Shown: positions 7,542-20,382 of the stretch, in pieces | How the letters are laid out: each line of letters starts with the position of its first letter | How positions within the stretch are numbered: position 1 is the stretch's first letter | Assembly: GCF_001179925.1 (NCBI RefSeq) | Contig: NZ_CVSF01000065.1 | Span: 1 to 36,364 of the forward strand | Direction of reading: 5' to 3' | DNA from: Candidatus Pelagibacter communis | GTDB lineage: Bacteria; Pseudomonadota; Alphaproteobacteria; Pelagibacterales; Pelagibacteraceae | Length of the DNA: 36,364 nt | Notes under the pieces: model-generated | Told to the model about the DNA's origin: nothing | What the model saw: the letters and a program-made list of their open reading frames with translations, nothing else | Database searches by the model: none | Program-made: the position numbers and the translations under genes

Positions 7542-8228
7542 ATGCGTTGGAATAAGAAATACAATTATCCAAGATCTACTAAATCAATATTTGGAGGTTC
7601 AAGACATTACACAGTCAATCAAGAAAATCTTCCTTCAGTAACAACAATTTTAAAGGCAACTGAATCTGAGGAAAAAAAGGCAAAATTAGAGGAGTGGAAA
7701 AAAAGAGTGGGATATAAACAGGCAGAAGTTATTTCTAGGGAGGCAACTAATAGAGGAAGTTCAATGCATGATTATTTAGAAAAATTTTTATTAGGAAAAT
7801 TAAATTTAGATCTGCTTGGTGATAATTCTCGAGAAAGGATGATGGCTGATCAAATAATCGAAAATGGATTAAGAAATAAATTAAGTGAGATTTGGGGGTG
7901 TGAAGCAACTTTATATTATCCAGGAAAATATGCAGGTGCTGCAGATTGTATTGGTATTTATGAAAATAAAGAGAGCTTAATAGATTTTAAAAATGCAAAC
8001 AAGCCAAAAAAAGATGAGTGGATAGATGACTATTATTTACAATGTGCTGCTTATGCAATGGCACACAACATAGTTTATGGAACAAATATTATACAAGGTG
8101 TAATTCTTTTATGTACTAAAGATAATATTTTTCAAAGATTTATAATTGATGGAGAAAGATTTAAAAATTATCAAAATCAATTTATGCAAAAAGTAGAACA
8201 ATTTTACTCACAAAGGTTAGCAAATTGA
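7542..8228 (+). CDS. PD-(D/E)XK (RecB-type) exonuclease, MGME1-like
   Basis: A 228-residue protein that looks like a RecB-family nuclease close to mitochondrial MGME1 and some phage exonucleases. Visible are LPSVTTILKAT near the N-terminus, RGSSMHDYL (His76), Glu121, GAADCIG (Asp135), the D-x-K motif DFK (Asp148, Lys150) followed by ANKPKKDEW, and YLQCAAYA (Gln167). This matches the motif order H...E...D...(D/E)xK...Q. The frame extends upstream into rmuC to 7473, but ATG 7542 gives the natural N-terminus. Its TGA overlaps the TTG start of the ExoI-like gene. It is expected to degrade or trim DNA ends, probably single strands; no substrate can be read from the sequence. Confidence 0.75.
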   Translation: MRWNKKYNYPRSTKSIFGGSRHYTVNQENLPSVTTILKATESEEKKAKLEEWKKRVGYKQAEVISREATNRGSSMHDYLEKFLLGKLNLDLLGDNSRERMMADQIIENGLRNKLSEIWGCEATLYYPGKYAGAADCIGIYENKESLIDFKNANKPKKDEWIDDYYLQCAAYAMAHNIVYGTNIIQGVILLCTKDNIFQRFIIDGERFKNYQNQFMQKVEQFYSQRLAN

Positions 8229-9673
8229 ATTACGTAGTTTGGGATATTGAAACAGATTCTGCCCAATTAGATTGGGCAACAACTATAGAAGTTGGAGCAA
8301 TACTTTTGGATGAAAACTTTAAAGAAAAAGATAGATTTTCTACTAGATGTAGGATGCCGCAAGACCGTGTTCCATCTGCTACTGCATTATGTATAAATAA
8401 ATCAAATGTAGATTTGATTACTAAGGGCAACTTAAGTCACTATCAAATGATAGGCCAAGTTGAAAAAAAATTTAGAGAATGGTCACCCGCAACATTTATG
8501 GGTTTTTCAAGTATAGGATTCGATGATGAAATTCTTAGGAGGGAGTTTTTCAAATCATTAAGAAAACCTTACCTAATTAACACAGAGGGCAATACAAGAC
8601 ATGATGCTCTTAATATGATCAAAGCTGCGTTTGCTGTTGATGAAAATATTTTAAAAACAGAGTTGAATCCCAAAGGAAATAAATCTATGAAATTAGAGTC
8701 TCTAGCAAGACTAAATGGTTTTGATTCTTCAGGAGCTCATGGAGCCTTATTTGACAGTCAATTAACCGTGAATGTTTTGGGTCTATTAAAGAACAAACAA
8801 CCAGATTTATGGCACGAGTATTTAAAGACTAAAAGTAAAGTCGTCGTTGAAAATTTAATTAAACAAGAAAAAATGTTTACCATTAATGAGAATTTCTTTG
8901 GTAAGAATTATTTATTTTTAGTTGCTCCGCTACATCCAAATTCATGGATGCATCCAGTTTATAAATGGGGACAGGTAGTAAATTTATCTTCAAATATTGA
9001 AGATCTTCAAAAACTTAATTATCAAGATTTAAAAAAGGAAATGAAAAAATCACCTCGTTTTTATAAAACAATAAAATCAAATAAAGCCCCTATAATTTTA
9101 GATAAAAGTTGGGGTTTAAAAGTTGATCCATATAAAAAAATCGGAATTAATTTATTAAATAAAAGAGCAGAATTAATGAAATCTAATGAAAAATTTTCTC
9201 AAGATATATGTAATATTTTAAAAGAGGCGGCAGAGGAAAAAATGGAAACCGCATCCCAAGAGGATTTGGAACCCGAGGAAACAATTTATTCTGGAGGCTT
9301 TGATACATTCAACAAAGATGTTCCATTATTTGAGAAGTTTCACTTTTCTGATTGGAAGGATAGATTAGTTTTATTAGATAAATTTAAAGATGATAGGCTA
9401 GTTGGATTTGGTCACAACTTAATATTTAATGAGGCACCAGAATTTCTACCAAAAGACATTTACAAAAAGATTAAAAGGAGAATTGCTTCTAGAATTTTAA
9501 GTACCAATAAAGAAAAATGGTGGACAGTTTCAGCTTTTTACTCAGAATGCGATGAAATAAGAGAAAACGAAGAAAAAATGTTTGCATTTAAAACAGTTGA
9601 TGAAAAATTAAAATTTTTGGATGGAATCAATGATTATGTTATGAATTTAGAACAAAAATATTCAGACGCATAA
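8225..9673 (+). CDS. sbcB: exodeoxyribonuclease I-like DEDDh 3'-5' exonuclease
   Basis: ExoI degrades single-stranded DNA 3' to 5' in repair and recombination. The 482-residue length matches E. coli ExoI (475). The DEDD exonuclease domain (about 1-185) shows Exo I motif VVWDIETD, Exo II around SSIGFDDEILRREFF, and Exo III AHGALFDSQLTVNVL with the DEDDh His. The rest corresponds to the ExoI C-terminal regions, including the LFEKFHFSDWKDRL and KWWTVSAFYSECDEIRE segments. The start is a TTG at 8225 within a TTGA overlap with the preceding nuclease; CAAAGG sits about 9 bases upstream. Protein starts M-N-Y-V-V-W-D-I-E, which supports this choice. Confidence 0.85.
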   Translation: MNYVVWDIETDSAQLDWATTIEVGAILLDENFKEKDRFSTRCRMPQDRVPSATALCINKSNVDLITKGNLSHYQMIGQVEKKFREWSPATFMGFSSIGFDDEILRREFFKSLRKPYLINTEGNTRHDALNMIKAAFAVDENILKTELNPKGNKSMKLESLARLNGFDSSGAHGALFDSQLTVNVLGLLKNKQPDLWHEYLKTKSKVVVENLIKQEKMFTINENFFGKNYLFLVAPLHPNSWMHPVYKWGQVVNLSSNIEDLQKLNYQDLKKEMKKSPRFYKTIKSNKAPIILDKSWGLKVDPYKKIGINLLNKRAELMKSNEKFSQDICNILKEAAEEKMETASQEDLEPEETIYSGGFDTFNKDVPLFEKFHFSDWKDRLVLLDKFKDDRLVGFGHNLIFNEAPEFLPKDIYKKIKRRIASRILSTNKEKWWTVSAFYSECDEIRENEEKMFAFKTVDEKLKFLDGINDYVMNLEQKYSDA

Positions 9674-10060: not shown

Positions 10061-11325
10061 TTCAAATTTAAAACTTCACCAGCCAGATACAAAGATCCAG
10101 TTATTAAAATTAAATCGTTTTCTTTAAGAGATATTGATTGAATTGCTTCTTTTATACTCTTTTTATATTGAACATTAGGGATATTTTTAAATTTATCTTT
10201 TAAATCTTTTCCACTAATTGCATTGGGTTGATTGGGTATATCAATCGTAGTTAATGAGGCAATATTTTTGAAATACGAAATATATTTTTCATGATCTTTA
10301 TTAGCCATCATTCCTATTATGACATGTTTGTTAGAATTTAAAGATTCAAGATATTCATTTAACACTTTTGATCCTCCGGGGTTATGTGATGAGTCTAGAA
10401 TAAGCTTATTGTGTTTAATCAAATCTTTTAATTTACCAGATTTAATTTCCTCCAATCTAGCGATGTTAGCCGCTTTTTGAACACCATTTATTATGTGTTG
10501 ATCTTTAATCTTAATATTTTCTAAAATTCTTAATGTTGCAATAGCTGTGGATGCATTTTCAAGTTGAAAATGACCATTTAAATTTGGCTTTGGAATTTTT
10601 AAACCACCAAATTTGTCCTCATAGTAAAAGAAATTATTTTCTTTTAAAACAAAACTATAATCTTCATTAAAGAAATATTTATTAGCTCTATTATCATAAA
10701 TATTTTTTTTTATACATTTAATAATTTCATTAGAATTTTGTTTTGCAACAACTATATTGTTTTCAAGTAAAGATGAAGTTTTTTCAAAAATAATTCTCTC
10801 AATAGTCCTATCGTTTTTTGGGAGCCAATCTAAATGGTCTTCACTACAAGAAGTTACTATATTACAAAGATTTTTTTTTAAAATATTTACAGCATCTCCT
10901 CTTCCAAATAGACCAAATTCAGCAATTACAAGATTTTTTTTATATTTTCTACATCCATAAAAGAATGCAGCAGTGAGAGCTTCAAAATATGTTAAAGGCT
11001 GACCATTGTTGATCTCTTCAATTTCATTTAATAAATCTGAGAGATCATCATCACTTATCATCTCATCATTATAGATAAATCTTTCATTTAAATGTTTGAC
11101 GTGAGGTGAGGTATATATATTACATTTAATATTTGCCTCTTTAAGTATTGATCTTAAAAAAGAAATTGTACTTCCTTTTCCGTTTGTTCCACATACTTGG
11201 ATACAATTTATTTCATCTTGAGGATTTCCTAATTTTGCACAAAGGGTTTTAATACGATTTAAACTAAGATCAATTTCTTTAGGATGCAGCTTTTGTAAGC
11301 GATTGACTATTTTCTGAAGTTTCAT
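10057..11325 (-). CDS. folC: dihydrofolate synthase / folylpolyglutamate synthase
   Basis: FolC adds glutamate to dihydropteroate and to folates, using ATP. The 422-residue protein shows HPKEIDLSLNRIKTL, the ATP-binding loop VCGTNGKGSTISFLRS, TSPHVKHLNERF (folate and Mur-ligase-like motif), AEFGLFGRGDAVN, TSCSEDHLDWL, and the C-terminal DSSHNPGGSKVL. The ATG at 11325 lies inside accD, giving a 47-base overlap. A later start is unlikely because the conserved HPKEIDLSL would be lost. It is last in the rpsA...accD-folC operon. Confidence 0.95.
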   Translation of the reverse strand: MKLQKIVNRLQKLHPKEIDLSLNRIKTLCAKLGNPQDEINCIQVCGTNGKGSTISFLRSILKEANIKCNIYTSPHVKHLNERFIYNDEMISDDDLSDLLNEIEEINNGQPLTYFEALTAAFFYGCRKYKKNLVIAEFGLFGRGDAVNILKKNLCNIVTSCSEDHLDWLPKNDRTIERIIFEKTSSLLENNIVVAKQNSNEIIKCIKKNIYDNRANKYFFNEDYSFVLKENNFFYYEDKFGGLKIPKPNLNGHFQLENASTAIATLRILENIKIKDQHIINGVQKAANIARLEEIKSGKLKDLIKHNKLILDSSHNPGGSKVLNEYLESLNSNKHVIIGMMANKDHEKYISYFKNIASLTTIDIPNQPNAISGKDLKDKFKNIPNVQYKKSIKEAIQSISLKENDLILITGSLYLAGEVLNLN

Positions 11326-12214
11326 TTTCTTCAGAATTTATAACAGAATTTTTCTTTAACAATATTGATAATAAAGTTCCAATTATTTTTGATAAATCTT
11401 TTCTTTCAACAATTAAGTCTACAAAACCTGTTTTTTCTACATATTCACTTTTTTGAAAACCTTCAGGAAGCTCCTCTTTAACTGTGCCTTGGATCACACG
11501 GGCACCTGCAAAAGCAATCAGTGCGCCCGGTTCAGCAATATGAATATCTCCTAACATTGCATATGAAGCTGTAATTCCACCGGCGGTGGGGTCTGTAATA
11601 CAAACTAAATATGGAAGATTGTTTTTCTTTAATTCATTAATTGCTAAAGTTGATCTGGTCATTTGAGATAATGAAATTAAACTTTCCATCATTCTCATTC
11701 CTCCTCCGGCGCTAATACATAAAAAAGGCGTTTGGTTTTCGATTGCATGTTGAATTCCATATAAAAAAGCCTCACCCTCAGCTGCAGCCATCGATGCACC
11801 TAAAAAGTCAAAATCTGATGCAACTGCTGTAATTTTGATATTGTTAATAGATCCACTTACAACCATCATTCCGCACTCTAGACCTGTCTTTTTTCTAGCA
11901 TTTTTTAATCTGTCTTTATAAGATTTTGAGTCAGTCCAATTTAAAGGATCATCTTTTGGAATTGGTGTTTTAAATATCTCATAGTTATTTTTTCCAAATA
12001 AAATATCAAATCTTTGTTTTGGATTTATTCTATGATGTTTATTACATTCAGGTTCAGGGCATACCCATAAGTTATCCTCTAAATCTTTTTTTAAAATTGG
12101 TCCCTTACAACAAGATGTCCAATCACTGTTAGCTATATCCTCTTTAGTTGCCCTTTTGTGAATAGCAGATTTAATTTTTTCACCTGCTTTTATTATTTTT
12201 GTTATCCAATTCAT
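11279..12214 (-). CDS. accD: acetyl-CoA carboxylase carboxyltransferase subunit beta
   Basis: AccD with AccA transfers CO2 from carboxybiotin to acetyl-CoA, the first step of fatty-acid synthesis. The 311-residue protein has the crotonase-like core with AVASDFDFLGASMAAAEGE, ISAGGGMRMMESLISL, DPTAGGITASYAMLGDIHIAEP and FAGARVIQGT. The N-terminal zinc ribbon is altered: instead of CxxC...CxxC there is an adjacent pair Cys35-Cys36 and Cys52-x4-Cys57. Many alphaproteobacterial AccD proteins have lost these ligands. ATGA overlap with trpA upstream and a 47-base overlap with folC downstream indicate tight coupling. Its partner accA is unlinked, at 32932. Confidence 0.95.
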   Translation of the reverse strand: MNWITKIIKAGEKIKSAIHKRATKEDIANSDWTSCCKGPILKKDLEDNLWVCPEPECNKHHRINPKQRFDILFGKNNYEIFKTPIPKDDPLNWTDSKSYKDRLKNARKKTGLECGMMVVSGSINNIKITAVASDFDFLGASMAAAEGEAFLYGIQHAIENQTPFLCISAGGGMRMMESLISLSQMTRSTLAINELKKNNLPYLVCITDPTAGGITASYAMLGDIHIAEPGALIAFAGARVIQGTVKEELPEGFQKSEYVEKTGFVDLIVERKDLSKIIGTLLSILLKKNSVINSEENETSENSQSLTKAAS

Positions 12215-13014
12215 TTAATTTTATTTTTCAATCTTTTCACTACATTAGTAACATTTGTGACAGTATTTTGTCTTTTTTTTATTGAGTTAGTTATTTCTTT
12301 ACAAATTGCACTTCCGACAACCAATCCATCGGCTTTTTTGAGAGATTTTATAGTTTTTTCAGTAATTCCAAATCCTATTACTACGTTTTTAGATAAATTT
12401 TGTTTTTTTATTTTTGAATATTCCTCTAATATTTTTTTAGGGGAAACTTTTAATTTCCCTCCAGTCGTAGACAACATACTTATATAATAAATCATATCAT
12501 GAGAATTTTTGATAATTTGTTTTAAACGAGTTTTTGATGTAGTAGGTGAAATAAGTTGAATAAAATTAATGTTTTTTTTTTTACATTTTTTAGCAAAAGT
12601 CTTATTTTCAGGAAACGGTAAGTCAACAACAATTAGACCATCCACTTTAGACTTTTGACATTTTTTAATGAATTTATTTTCGTTATATTGATAAATCATA
12701 TTATAATAACCCATCAAAATAATTGGCTTGTCTTTTTTAAGTTTTTTAAATTTAGCTGCAATTAAAAAAACGTCGTTTATTTTAATTCCATTTTTTATAG
12801 CTCTATAAGCGCTAGTTTGGATTTGACCGCCATCAGCGATTGGTGTGTTATGAGGAAAGCCTAATTCACAAATATCAGCATATTTAGAAATTGATTTTAG
12901 AATTTCTAATGATTTTTTTTTTGTGTTATCTCCAGCAACTGTATATGTGAGTAAAGCTGGTCTATTTTCACTCTTTGTAATTTTAAATGTTTGATGAATT
13001 AAAGAATTATTCAT
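12211..13014 (-). CDS. trpA: tryptophan synthase alpha subunit (divergent)
   Basis: TrpA cleaves indole-3-glycerol phosphate to indole and glyceraldehyde 3-phosphate. The 267-residue TIM barrel keeps both catalytic residues: Glu50 (equivalent to Salmonella E49) in CELGFP and Asp61 (D60) in PIADGGQIQ. The segment between them is HNTP rather than the usual FSDP, so Salmonella alpha-Asp56, which forms a salt bridge to beta-Lys167, is Thr57. Loop 6 reads STTGG where most have GVTGA. The C-terminus is Asn/Lys/Thr-rich. Overlaps are one base with trpB and ATGA with accD. The function in Trp synthesis is well supported by the trpF-trpB-trpA order. Confidence 0.93.
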   Translation of the reverse strand: MNNSLIHQTFKITKSENRPALLTYTVAGDNTKKKSLEILKSISKYADICELGFPHNTPIADGGQIQTSAYRAIKNGIKINDVFLIAAKFKKLKKDKPIILMGYYNMIYQYNENKFIKKCQKSKVDGLIVVDLPFPENKTFAKKCKKKNINFIQLISPTTSKTRLKQIIKNSHDMIYYISMLSTTGGKLKVSPKKILEEYSKIKKQNLSKNVVIGFGITEKTIKSLKKADGLVVGSAICKEITNSIKKRQNTVTNVTNVVKRLKNKIK

Positions 13015-14243
13015 TAATATTTTCCCAACCGCGCTTTCAGTATATCTCTATCTTTTTTTGCATCCCCACAAGAATTTACAATACAAATTGTCTCTTTGCT
13101 TAATTTGGGAGCAATTTTAATCGCCTCTGCAAAAGCGTGACTAGGTTCTAAACTAGGATTTAATTTTTCGAATTTAGTCACTAATTTATATGCATTTAAT
13201 GCTTCTTCATCAGTTGCAAAAGTATATCTTGCTCTTTTTGTATCTTTTAAAAAACAATGAATTGGACTTACTCCAGGATAGTCTAAACCAGCACTAATTG
13301 ACTCTGTTTCGTGAATTTGACCTTCATTATTTTGACAAACATAAGATGCTGCACCGTGTAGGATCCCAATTTTAGCATTTCTACTTAGAGGCGCAGCATG
13401 TAATTTTGAATTTTTTGGACCACCTGCCTCAACACCAATTAATTCAATCTGTTTTTTATTATAATCAATAAATTCACTCCAAAAACCATAAGCAGAACTA
13501 CCACCCCCTACACAATTGATAAGCTTAATTATTTTTGGCATTTTTTTAAATTCTTCAATTAATTGAGATTTTAATTCTCTAGAAATTTGAGCAGTGCTCC
13601 ATCCACAAATTTTTACAAAAATATTTGGTCCAACTGTGGAGCCCACACACATATGAGTATTATCACAGTTAGATACCCAATATCTCATACATTCACTTAC
13701 AGCATCAACTAGTGTTTGACTTCCAGAATAAACAGGCACAATTACCGCACCATTTTTTCTCATTGCATCACAATTAGGTTTTTGTCTTTGTATATCTTTT
13801 GCACCCATAAAAATTTTACATTTAAGGCCAAATTTTTTAGCAGCCATACTTAACATTTTACCTGCATATCCTGCCCCAGTATCCCCTACAATATATTTTT
13901 TACCCATGGCTTTACATATCAAGGCATGGACAGTAGCGTTATATATTTTATGAGCTCCACCATTAGCTTCTGAAACTACTTTTGCCCAAATTTGTGCCCC
14001 TCCTAAGTGGCTCGATAAATTTTCTAATTTTACAAATGAAGTGGGAGAACCGACATAATTTTGAAAGTAAAAATCCCTTTTCTTTATGAATTTTTTATTT
14101 TTTCTAAGTTTTTCAAATTTTATTGTTAGGTCCTCAATTGGTTTTTTGAGAGTTTCAGGAATGAAACTACCACCAAATTTTCCACCCCAAAATCCATATT
14201 TGTCATGTTGATCAATTAAGGGAACGTTTTTTTTAAGTTTCAT
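13014..14243 (-). CDS. trpB: tryptophan synthase beta subunit (strongly divergent)
   Basis: TrpB is the PLP enzyme joining indole and serine. The 409-residue protein has the fold markers: FGGSFIPETL, NGGAHKIYNA with PLP Lys99 (Salmonella K87), the phosphate loop VGGGSSAYG, SISAGLDYPGVSP (D305) and SLEPSHA (E350). But the catalytic loop ETGAGQHG is DTGAGYAG: Glu109 becomes Asp121, Gln114 Tyr126 and His115 Ala127. The usual KRED before the Lys loop is KVVSE, and beta-Lys167 is Val179. It is far from ordinary TrpB1, and from TrpB2, whose Lys loop is TGSHK. It sits between trpF and trpA, one base from each, so it is expected to work with this TrpA. Confidence 0.9.
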   Translation of the reverse strand: MKLKKNVPLIDQHDKYGFWGGKFGGSFIPETLKKPIEDLTIKFEKLRKNKKFIKKRDFYFQNYVGSPTSFVKLENLSSHLGGAQIWAKVVSEANGGAHKIYNATVHALICKAMGKKYIVGDTGAGYAGKMLSMAAKKFGLKCKIFMGAKDIQRQKPNCDAMRKNGAVIVPVYSGSQTLVDAVSECMRYWVSNCDNTHMCVGSTVGPNIFVKICGWSTAQISRELKSQLIEEFKKMPKIIKLINCVGGGSSAYGFWSEFIDYNKKQIELIGVEAGGPKNSKLHAAPLSRNAKIGILHGAASYVCQNNEGQIHETESISAGLDYPGVSPIHCFLKDTKRARYTFATDEEALNAYKLVTKFEKLNPSLEPSHAFAEAIKIAPKLSKETICIVNSCGDAKKDRDILKARLGKY

Positions 14244-14244
14244 A

Positions 14245-14862
14245 TTATAAATTTTTCATTTTATTTAAAAAAATTTCTATTTTAGAAATATCTTTTAATC
14301 CATCAGTTTCTAACCCACCAGATATATCAACAATATGTGCTATTTTTTTTAGATTTTCAAGATTATCATCAATTTGAACATTGCCAGCAATCATAACTTC
14401 TTTATTTAGATTCAATTTTTCTATAAGTGCGTGATCAAATGACATACTATTTTCATATCCCTTACTATCAAATAAATAGATGTCTGTTGTATCAATAAAT
14501 TTTTTATATTCATTTACATCTTCAATATCATTTACAGTTATTGCAGTAATAATTTTTTTTTTATATTTTTCTTTTATTGATTTTATTTTACTAGGTTCAC
14601 AATTATAAAGTTGATAATAATCAAATGGTAGCTCTTTAATCTCCTCTAGAATATCTTGATTAGGATTTACGAGGACTGCAACATAAAAGGAATTTTTTTT
14701 TTCAACTTTCAAAAGATCTTTTAATTTTTTGATATCAACATATCTTTTTGATTTTGGATAATTAACTATAAAGCCTACAAACTGTGGTGGGTAGTTATGA
14801 TTTACTATAAAATTTAATACCTTAGTGTCTGAAACACCACAAATTTTTGATTTTAGGATCAT
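14245..14862 (-). CDS. trpF: phosphoribosylanthranilate isomerase
   Basis: TrpF performs the Amadori rearrangement of phosphoribosylanthranilate in tryptophan synthesis. The 205-residue TIM barrel keeps the catalytic Cys in KICGV (residue 8) and the Asp in YLFDSKGYE. The substrate phosphate region IAGNVQIDDNLENL and VDISGGLETDGLKDISKI corresponds to the usual LAGGL and VDVSSGVE...KD. The sequence is fairly divergent (QLYNC where most have QLHG). It overlaps pyrF by ATGA and is one base from trpB. pyrF before trpF in the ihfB-trpB interval is a known alphaproteobacterial arrangement. Confidence 0.93.
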   Translation of the reverse strand: MILKSKICGVSDTKVLNFIVNHNYPPQFVGFIVNYPKSKRYVDIKKLKDLLKVEKKNSFYVAVLVNPNQDILEEIKELPFDYYQLYNCEPSKIKSIKEKYKKKIITAITVNDIEDVNEYKKFIDTTDIYLFDSKGYENSMSFDHALIEKLNLNKEVMIAGNVQIDDNLENLKKIAHIVDISGGLETDGLKDISKIEIFLNKMKNL

Positions 14863-15533
14863 TGACTTAAATGATCAATTAATGTTTGCATGTTTTTTCT
14901 TATATTGCCCTTAGTGATGGGCCTTCCTATTACAAGCCAATCACTTCCATTTTTATAAGCTTGTTGAGGGGTTAAAGTTCTAATTTGATCATTTGTTTTT
15001 GAATTAAATCTTATTCCAGGTGTAATTATTTCTTTTTTGAAAACTTTTTTTACTATTTTTACTTCTTGAGCGCTACATACAATAGCATCTAATTTTGCTT
15101 TACTTGCCAATCTAGCTTGATCAAGAACTACTTTCTTAATATCTTTATTAAATCCTATTTCTCTTAAAGCTTGATTATCTAATGATGTTAAAATTGTTAC
15201 ACCTACTAATTTAGTTTTTCCAGCAATTTTCTTTGCAGCTTTAATCGCCTTTAATCCTGAACTAATATGAATCGTTAAATAGTTTACTTTTAAATCTTTA
15301 ATTGCTCTAATTGTTGAAATACAGGTATTAGGAATATCGTGAATTTTAAGATCAGCAAAAACAATCTTATTTTTTAATTTAGATATAAAATTTCGTCCAT
15401 TTTTGGAGTTCAAAAATTCCAATCCAAATTTGTAACCAACTTTAATTTTAGAATTTTGTGTTTTACTGATTATTTTTTTTACTTTAGAAATGTTATTACT
15501 GTCGCAAGCTACAAATATTTTATTCTTCTTCAT
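14859..15533 (-). CDS. pyrF: orotidine 5'-phosphate decarboxylase
   Basis: PyrF makes UMP from OMP, the last step of de novo pyrimidine synthesis. The 224-residue protein shows the catalytic DLKIHDIPNT (Asp-Lys...Asp), an N-terminal VACDSNN (usual LALD), TILTSLDNQALREIGF, ITPGIR and the phosphate-binding WLVIGRPITKG. Its start overlaps the end of ihfB by 14 bases and its stop overlaps trpF (ATGA). It lies between a DNA-architecture gene and trp genes through conserved operon order rather than pathway logic. Confidence 0.96.
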   Translation of the reverse strand: MKKNKIFVACDSNNISKVKKIISKTQNSKIKVGYKFGLEFLNSKNGRNFISKLKNKIVFADLKIHDIPNTCISTIRAIKDLKVNYLTIHISSGLKAIKAAKKIAGKTKLVGVTILTSLDNQALREIGFNKDIKKVVLDQARLASKAKLDAIVCSAQEVKIVKKVFKKEIITPGIRFNSKTNDQIRTLTPQQAYKNGSDWLVIGRPITKGNIRKNMQTLIDHLSQ

Positions 15534-19806: not shown

Positions 19807-20382
19807 TTAATTTTTATTTAGTTGCACTTTATCGTTTTCATTATTCATATAAATATCAATTTTTTTTGTAATTAAATTTATCTTAATATTATCAGATAAA
19901 ATTGAACCTTGCGATCCTTCATAACGAACATTTTCAAATATTTTAGCTATATTATTTTCAAAATCTAGATCAGCCTTATCTGAAAATATTTTATTATTCA
20001 TATATTCAATTGAAACGTTATTTCTAAATTTAGTACTATAGTTATCATTATTATAATCAGCATTATCAGATTTGATTATCAAAGGAATTCTATTTTGGTC
20101 TATAATTAAAGCTTTTACTTTTTGCATTTTGATTATTTCAGAATTGTTAGAATTAATTAGTTCACTTAAATCTGATGTTATAATATATTGTTTATTTTGA
20201 TCTAAATTCACCTCATATTTTAAATTTTTTATTAAATTATTCTCTGTTTTAGAAATTATTTGATCATTTAGATTATCTGATTTGACTATAATTTCATTAT
20301 TTTTAGATAAATATAATTTGTTAAAAAAAAATAAAGTTAATATCACAATAAAAAAAAGAGAAAATTGAACAATTCTTTTCAT
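19807..20382 (-). CDS. lptC: LptC-like periplasmic LPS export protein
   Basis: A 191-residue bitopic protein with an N-terminal membrane helix (about residues 5-24, VQFSLFFIVILTLFFFNKLY) and a periplasmic beta-rich part. The later segments, including NADYNNDNYSTKF and DFENNIAKIFENVRYEG, resemble the LptC/LptA jellyroll that shields lipid A during transport. Gene order kdsD-lptC-lptB supports LptC. The sequence itself is poorly conserved and Asn-rich. Because no separate lptA is present here, this one protein might serve more of the bridge, but its length allows only one jellyroll domain. Confidence 0.75.
   Translation of the reverse strand: MKRIVQFSLFFIVILTLFFFNKLYLSKNNEIIVKSDNLNDQIISKTENNLIKNLKYEVNLDQNKQYIITSDLSELINSNNSEIIKMQKVKALIIDQNRIPLIIKSDNADYNNDNYSTKFRNNVSIEYMNNKIFSDKADLDFENNIAKIFENVRYEGSQGSILSDNIKINLITKKIDIYMNNENDKVQLNKN

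Follow-up and report, generated by a model that had tools for sequence, protein, structure and literature searches.

An altered TrpBA pair of SAR11 bacteria, a putative tryptophan synthase that varies as a unit between trpF and accD

The DNA analysed, called the window below, is the stretch of 36,364 nucleotides that covers positions 1 to 36,364 of contig NZ_CVSF01000065.1 from Candidatus Pelagibacter communis (SAR11, order Pelagibacterales; assembly GCF_001179925.1, 1.01 Mb in 68 contigs, 86% complete). A minus-strand run of pyrF, trpF, trpB, trpA, an accD-like and a folC-like gene is found here, and the subject of this report is the trpB-trpA pair, encoding the beta and alpha subunits of a putative tryptophan synthase with an altered catalytic loop and an altered contact between the subunits. 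Residues were numbered through alignment to E. coli TrpB (397 aa) and TrpA (268 aa), and the Salmonella numbering is presumably the same. The lysine that binds pyridoxal phosphate (PLP) is among the features of the locus, which are as follows.

13014 to 14243, minus strand: trpB, window-type (type I) beta subunit, 409 aa (TIGR00263, PDB sequence match, AlphaFold2 model)
13947 to 13949, minus strand: TrpB Lys99, the PLP lysine (E. coli Lys87), kept (alignment to E. coli and codon check)
13860 to 13883, minus strand: DTGAGYAG loop, TrpB residues 121-128 (E. coli 109-116, ETGAGQHG; codons checked)
13707 to 13709, minus strand: TrpB Val179 at the Lys167 position (alignment to E. coli and codon check)
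12211 to 13014, minus strand: trpA, alpha subunit, 267 aa (TIGR00262, 209.1 bits; PF00290, 222.6 bits)
12844 to 12846, minus strand: TrpA Thr57 at the Asp56 position (alignment to E. coli and codon check)
12832 to 12834, minus strand: TrpA Asp61 (catalytic Asp60), kept (alignment to E. coli and codon check)
14245 to 14862, minus strand: trpF, phosphoribosylanthranilate isomerase, upstream neighbour (PF00697, 84.7 bits)
14859 to 15533, minus strand: pyrF, orotidine monophosphate decarboxylase, neighbour, swapped in some relatives (PF00215)
11279 to 12214, minus strand: accD-like carboxyltransferase, downstream neighbour (PF01039; named from its position and the gene order in the accessible part of PMC2395257)
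10057 to 11325, minus strand: folC-like gene after accD (named from its position and the accD-folC order in the same part of PMC2395257 only)

Alignment to E. coli and inspection of the codons showed that Glu109 of the beta subunit is Asp121 in the window, Gln114 is Tyr126, His115 is Ala127 and Lys167 is Val179, and that the segment before the loop, ordinarily of the KREDLNHTGAHK type, is KVVSEANGGAHK here and unchanged in length. In the alpha subunit Asp56 is Thr57. Retained are beta His86 (His98), Lys87 (Lys99), Arg141 (Arg153), Asp305 (Asp321) and Glu350 (Glu366), alpha Glu49 (Glu50) and Asp60 (Asp61) and likewise alpha Tyr175 and Thr183. An earlier note on this DNA had named the altered residues, a change of KRED to KVVSE and the retention of the PLP lysine, beta-Asp305, beta-Glu350, alpha-Glu49 and alpha-Asp60, and it was correct on all of them. 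Equivalents of Glu109 and Lys167 at shifted positions, which it had said would speak against its claim, were not found: three TrpB chains from the PDB, aligned with HMMER, gave the same register and no gaps around the altered sites.

For comparison, 53 TrpBs and 51 TrpAs of ordinary type were taken from the same class (Alphaproteobacteria), a set that leans to conserved forms because its loci were the top matches to three TrpB queries. Glu109, Gln114, His115 and Lys167 are identical in 53/53 of these TrpBs and alpha Asp56 in 51/51 of the TrpAs. The altered beta letters are the same in all 136 full-length sequences of the window type (type I), except at beta-167 (Val in 134, Ile in 2), and the beta catalytic residues are retained in 136/136; alpha Glu49 and Asp60 are present in every type I pair but one, which has a gap. 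Fixed type I changes at class-invariant sites, beyond those that the earlier note had named, include N171S, N236S, R379D and G380A in beta and F54H and G181S in alpha. Unlike these, S377C is ordinary in the class (50/53 ordinary TrpBs).

TrpA scores 209.1 bits with TIGR00262 (cut-off 102.35) and has Glu50 and Asp61. TrpB has the TrpB1-type PLP lysine, Arg141/Asp305 pair and Glu350, and differs from ordinary class TrpB1 in having Asp121 and Val179 in place of Glu109 and Lys167. Its closest PDB sequence match is the LBCA beta subunit (338 bits). The TrpB fold is predicted by an AlphaFold2 model with a predicted local distance difference test score of 93.5, for which the top Foldseek match is P. 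furiosus TrpB (6am8_C, template modelling score 0.91/0.96). The TrpB2 model TIGR01415, whose cut-off is 518.85, gives the protein 90.4 bits, and the Arg at the Asp305 position that marks TrpB2 according to the accessible part of PMC1854888 is absent, Asp321 standing there instead; on that score and that residue, assignment to TrpB2 was ruled out.

Within the genomes sampled, the clade of the window TrpB was seen in SAR11 only. Of 289 class genomes, three had the DNA pattern for DTGAGYAG, and these were the only members of the order drawn. A class-wide search of 278 genomes, 209 of them with a TrpB match, gave a top score of 333 bits (43% identity) outside the order and 730-940 bits inside it, and the highest identity outside the order was 45% among the matches listed. 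The 80 loci retained out of 269 public relatives of the window TrpB carry the names Pelagibacteraceae, Candidatus Pelagibacter or Pelagibacterales, with one (L090) named as Alphaproteobacteria only. Inside the order, 277 of 297 genomes matched the window TrpB, or 274 when three weak matches (about 1e-4) are set aside. A viral origin of the pair was dismissed, as a viral contig collection gave no relative and the TrpBs among phage (20) and plasmid (126) records were all below 60% identity. Some phage-labelled records (Listeria, Acinetobacter and unnamed) carry an ordinary-looking trpB and may be host DNA.

The SAR11 pairs take several forms, shown by 164 distinct trpBA pairs sampled non-randomly, the closest relatives of the window and rare forms having been deliberately sought. 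By the loop motif these are type I, DTGAGYAG (142 pairs); type Ib, DTGAGMFG (4); type II, DTGAGMAG (2); type III, ESGAGQHY/F (7); type IV, ETGASMN/MHS (3); type V, ETGAGAHL (3); and type VI, the ordinary ETGAGQHG (3). The seven motif forms make up four clades that share a single syntenic position, and three of these clades are rebuilt; five of the forms (I, Ib, II, III and IV) are found within the genus of the window. Of 131 beta sites at which at least 50 of 51 ordinary members of the class agree, 38 carry a fixed change in type I, 45 in Ib, 21 in II, 27 in III, 41 in IV, 34 in V and 0 in VI. The median TrpB identities between clades in the genus are 26-35%, whereas the lowest pair of ordinary class TrpBs has 52% (n = 51). 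TrpA shows no such contrast: the same types share 25-31% identity, and the minimum in the class is 29%.

In type III (L194-L196, L211, L290-L292) the catalytic alpha-60 position is Glu in 7/7, and beta-305 is Gln or Thr. In type V (L202, L133, L134) both ends of the Arg141-Asp305 bridge within the beta subunit are changed together, to Leu and Asn. Type IV (L141-L143, L197-L199), with the motif ETGASMN or ETGASMH, has a very divergent TrpB, whose stem in the quick tree is 2.19 changes per site long, and its alpha-56/beta-167 contact is neutral.

All trees were quick ones that carry long-branch warnings. In the TrpB tree as in the TrpA tree, types I, Ib and II form one clade with a support of 100 in the Shimodaira-Hasegawa-like approximate likelihood ratio test (SH-aLRT), and the supports are 98 and 99 for III with V and 100 for IV. 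The separate TrpAB lineage proposed in the earlier note is thus borne out by the clade support of 100 in both trees, and the samples from the class showed it in Pelagibacterales only. That it is one of several rebuilt pairs in SAR11, and that a distinct SAR11 trpB cluster had been published in 2008, had escaped the note. A single clade of all rebuilt types had a support of only 20. By approximately unbiased (AU) tests, neither the grouping of type I with IV (p-AU = 0.57) nor that with III/V (p-AU = 0.61) was rejected, and the tests did not decide between one and several origins of the rebuilt clades, or between one and two losses of the bridge.

In the Salmonella enzyme the bridge in question joins alpha-Asp56 and beta-Lys167, and the earlier note had held that both ends changed together. 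Both sites are readable in 163 of the 164 pairs (the TrpA of L259 has a gap), and no mixed state occurs among them: an acid at alpha-56 and Lys at beta-167 are both present in 13 and both absent in 150. On the tree there are two changes per site, in one or two independent pairs, of which one lies on supported branches, and a coevolution test of the two sites had no power with so few changes. As there are about two changes per site and the deep joins are unsettled, the pattern fits coupled change and is not proof of it. Probably the neutral alpha-56/beta-167 site still mediates contact.

As for the loop, the serine carboxylate is held mainly by loop backbone atoms, and the Salmonella E109D enzyme reportedly keeps part of its activity. 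Probably Asp121, which is one carbon shorter, takes the role of Glu109 in the altered pocket. That role is to stabilise the charge on the indole N1, as given in the accessible part of PMC9512447, and Asp might still serve in this way. The different allostery and serine binding suggested in the earlier note are not demonstrated by these comparisons, and the bridge change amounts to about two events.

The two genes vary together. Correlations were taken over 40 loci like those of the window's genus. All eight genes were present in 55 of 61 loci, and the other six were omitted. Pairwise identities of trpB and trpA correlate with r = 0.97, and those of trpB with six neighbours with r = 0.07-0.51, the observed value being reached in 2/2000 permutations for trpB-accD and 36/2000 for trpB-rpsA. 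The TrpA and TrpB trees, whose matching topology the earlier note had proposed to test, have 11 of 31 splits in common, and at most 3 after shuffling. Single-contig genomes show the pair set among neighbours of another degree of relatedness. In G026, rpsA at 82% and accD at 85% identity flank a type III pair with trpB at 37% and trpA at 29%. Type I pairs lie between distant flanks in G001, G009 and G158: in G001, from another genus, flanks of 32-48% surround trpB at 82% and trpA at 68%, and over G001 and G158, both from other genera, genes at 32-54% flank trpB at 80-82% and trpA at 68-71%.

The pair is very probably a working tryptophan synthase, judging by its sequence and setting. No second TrpB was found in the source genome at its 86% completeness, where the next TIGR00263 scores were 32.4 and 14 bits, and each of 12 assemblies that are 99-100% complete had one TrpB (374-406 bits) and nothing further above 40.2 bits. 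The second, ordinary trpB named in the earlier note as a possible refutation was therefore found neither in the source genome nor in 12/12 near-complete assemblies. The gene for trpC is present in the source genome and in 20 of 21 genomes searched. The ratio of non-synonymous to synonymous substitution rates (dN/dS) was 0.023-0.076 for trpB in 13 within-type pairs, 0.04-0.06 for three pairs with the window and 0.038-0.264 for trpA in within-type pairs, values that are rough because dS is often near or above 1. The window type of trpB is under purifying selection. As the sole TrpB found, in the order trpF-trpB-trpA, with trpC present and a low trpB dN/dS, it agrees with the view of the earlier note that the pair is still used for tryptophan. 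No TrpB above 37 bits was found in 23 of the 297 order genomes; trpF is also absent in 16 of 17 of these that were tested, and trpC is present in all 7 with a completeness of 90% or more. This absence is read as an assembly gap at the locus, the alternative being loss of the block.

It is highly likely that the window TrpBA is a working synthase, belonging to a branch of the operon-type (TrpB1-like) enzyme that is confined to SAR11, and that its two subunits are co-adapted and move together between trpF and accD. TrpA Glu50 and Asp61 would cleave indole-glycerol phosphate, the indole would pass to TrpB, where Lys99-PLP would form the aminoacrylate from serine, and indole would then add to it. 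Asp121 would substitute for Glu109 towards the charge on indole N1, in a pocket altered from KREDLNH to KVVSEAN and by Q114Y, H115A and N236S, and the subunits would touch without the Asp56-Lys167 bridge, through a neutral contact of Thr, Cys or Ala with Val or Ile. We infer that trpB and trpA travel jointly through SAR11 lineages, replacing one another by recombination between trpF and accD, in large part independently of the genes around them, with co-adaptation as the cause of their moving as a unit.

Several observations weigh against this interpretation. The window TrpB narrowly misses the TIGR00263 cut-off of 392.45, with 388.8 bits (388.5 in the genome search); 9 of 12 near-complete assemblies with related TrpBs pass it, one of the nine with a type III protein, and the TrpB1-type placement is accordingly founded on fold and tree and not on this cut-off. 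Joining the window clade with the ordinary SAR11 TrpB was not rejected (p-AU = 0.20). The trpB-trpF correlation of r = 0.51 was reached in 0/2000 permutations, and rpsA-ihf (r = 0.82) and accD-folC (r = 0.71) co-vary as well. Because other gene pairs also correlate, trpBA is the tightest unit and not the only one. Neighbours have been swapped too, pyrF being at 41% in G005 and folC at 29% in G024.

An even chance may be given to plain divergence, by which type I works normally, its E109D change and missing bridge represent tolerated drift, and the several forms reflect general in-place swapping without selection specific to trpBA. The minimum identities of the neighbours in the genus-like set (folC 25%, trpF 29%, accD 32%, pyrF 34%, ihf 35%) are close to those of trpB (26%) and trpA (24%), and lateral transfer is reported for at least 189 of 204 conserved marine prokaryoplankton genes, with Pelagibacter examples, in the accessible part of PMC12416821. 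Nor are the type I changes significantly concentrated in the COMM domain (14/36 sites against 24/95, p = 0.136); p came to about 0.01 in alpha loop 2 (types III and IV) and in the COMM domain (type III), uncorrected for about 20 tests. However, the new letters are fixed in 136/136 type I sequences and the same sites are invariant in ordinary class members, so the altered sites are constrained in both forms.

That the subunits have become uncoupled, with TrpB acting largely alone and the lost bridge meaning lost mutual activation and channelling, is improbable. Both bridge ends are neutral, alpha G181 and beta N171 at the interface are fixed as Ser in type I, and a changed alpha-Asp56 lowers TrpA activity in the complex (PMC6608616, accessible part), all of which would suit uncoupling, but the trpA-trpB correlation of 0.97 and the 0 mixed bridge states in 163 pairs suggest a kept interface, and type I retains the R141/D305 bridge within beta. 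Far less credible is a shift to another donor or product, such as O-phosphoserine, which is said to have been proposed as the TrpB2 donor, or an indole compound other than tryptophan. The pocket is altered at several class-invariant sites, as such a shift might produce, yet the gene stays beside trpF, the TrpB2 model score is low (90.4 against 518.85), and tryptophan would in that case have to come from uptake, as no other TrpB was found. Least credible is that the pattern of several forms arises from binning errors or chimeric assemblies, or from vertical descent alone: many sampled genomes are fragmented (20-70 contigs), but the pattern is present in the single-contig genomes G026 (type III) and G001, G009 and G158 (type I), and vertical descent would not put a 37% TrpB beside an 85% accD.

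A wider reading than that of a co-adapted working synthase is quite doubtful, namely that SAR11 trpBA is a diversifying two-gene cassette, of which three or more clades (I/Ib/II, III/V and IV) have a rebuilt interface and beta pocket and the versions are kept circulating by selection. The selective agent might, as pure conjecture, be natural inhibitors of the indole tunnel or the subunit interface that favour rare versions; known TrpAB inhibitors bind at the subunit interface (PMC5573416, accessible part).

Other genes of the window also differ among relatives. Swapped forms are found for pyrF as well, which is at 41-48% in G005, G011, G020 and G024 though most nearby genes are at 60-93%, and at 72-79% in G003, G013, G015 and G026. 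The folC-like gene is at 62-66% in most close relatives tested, at 86% in G048 and G206 and at about 29% in some (G024, G040, G082). An exonuclease gene (8225 to 9673; PF08411/PF00929) is at 43-54% in G003, G011, G015 and G020 and at 79-89% in G005 and G013. A gene for 191 aa (19807 to 20382) that adjoins an ABC ATPase gene is at 26-36% in 8/8 genus-mates, with neighbours at 54-86%.

The window pair shares with the TrpB1 systems of Salmonella/E. coli and P. furiosus the predicted fold, the PLP lysine, Arg141/Asp305, Glu350 and the GGGS motif of TrpB, the adjoining trpA with Glu49 and Asp60, and the trp gene cluster. Unlike them it has Glu109 to Asp, Gln114 to Tyr, His115 to Ala, Lys167 to Val and Asn236 to Ser in TrpB, and Asp56 to Thr and Gly181 to Ser in TrpA. 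In 2008 Kagan and others described a distinct cluster of SAR11 trpB_1 genes, with a single trpB copy and the same gene order (PMC2395257), and the Pelagibacter ubique cluster there is very likely type I/Ib; the accessible part of that paper has nothing on active-site residues, Asp56/Lys167, other rebuilt types or joint trpBA swapping. Lys162 in the active site of P. furiosus TrpB is said to be conserved only in TrpB1 (Merkl 2007, PMC1854888, accessible part). By the numbering offset it would correspond to Lys167 here, and D300 to 305. Loss of Lys167 thus has a precedent, TrpB1 being the only type said to conserve its counterpart; TrpB2 has Arg at D300, unlike the window TrpB, which keeps Asp. 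In-place swapping as such is not new, because core-gene exchange in this plankton is published, with gyrA as a Pelagibacter example and trp genes unmentioned in the accessible part of PMC12416821. Unlike those cases, it is an alpha-beta pair that moves jointly here, its forms being 26-37% identical to one another. Searches of an open-access library, with subscription papers mostly outside it, showed no treatment of the altered residues, the multiple forms or joint trpBA swapping, and the accessible part of PMC7311316 (GapMind) held nothing pertinent. As far as those searches show, the occurrence of seven motif forms from four clades, of which three are rebuilt, at a single syntenic position is new.

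For annotation it matters that the window TrpB falls just below the curated trpB cut-off, and if the pairs are active they would be new starting points for TrpB engineering. Both beta-Glu109 and the alpha-Asp56/beta-Lys167 bridge have textbook status in the best-studied bienzyme, and here a highly abundant group of marine bacteria seems to manage with neither. The SAR11 pairs serve as natural tests of which parts are needed for catalysis and for signalling between subunits, and of the mixing of subunits between forms.

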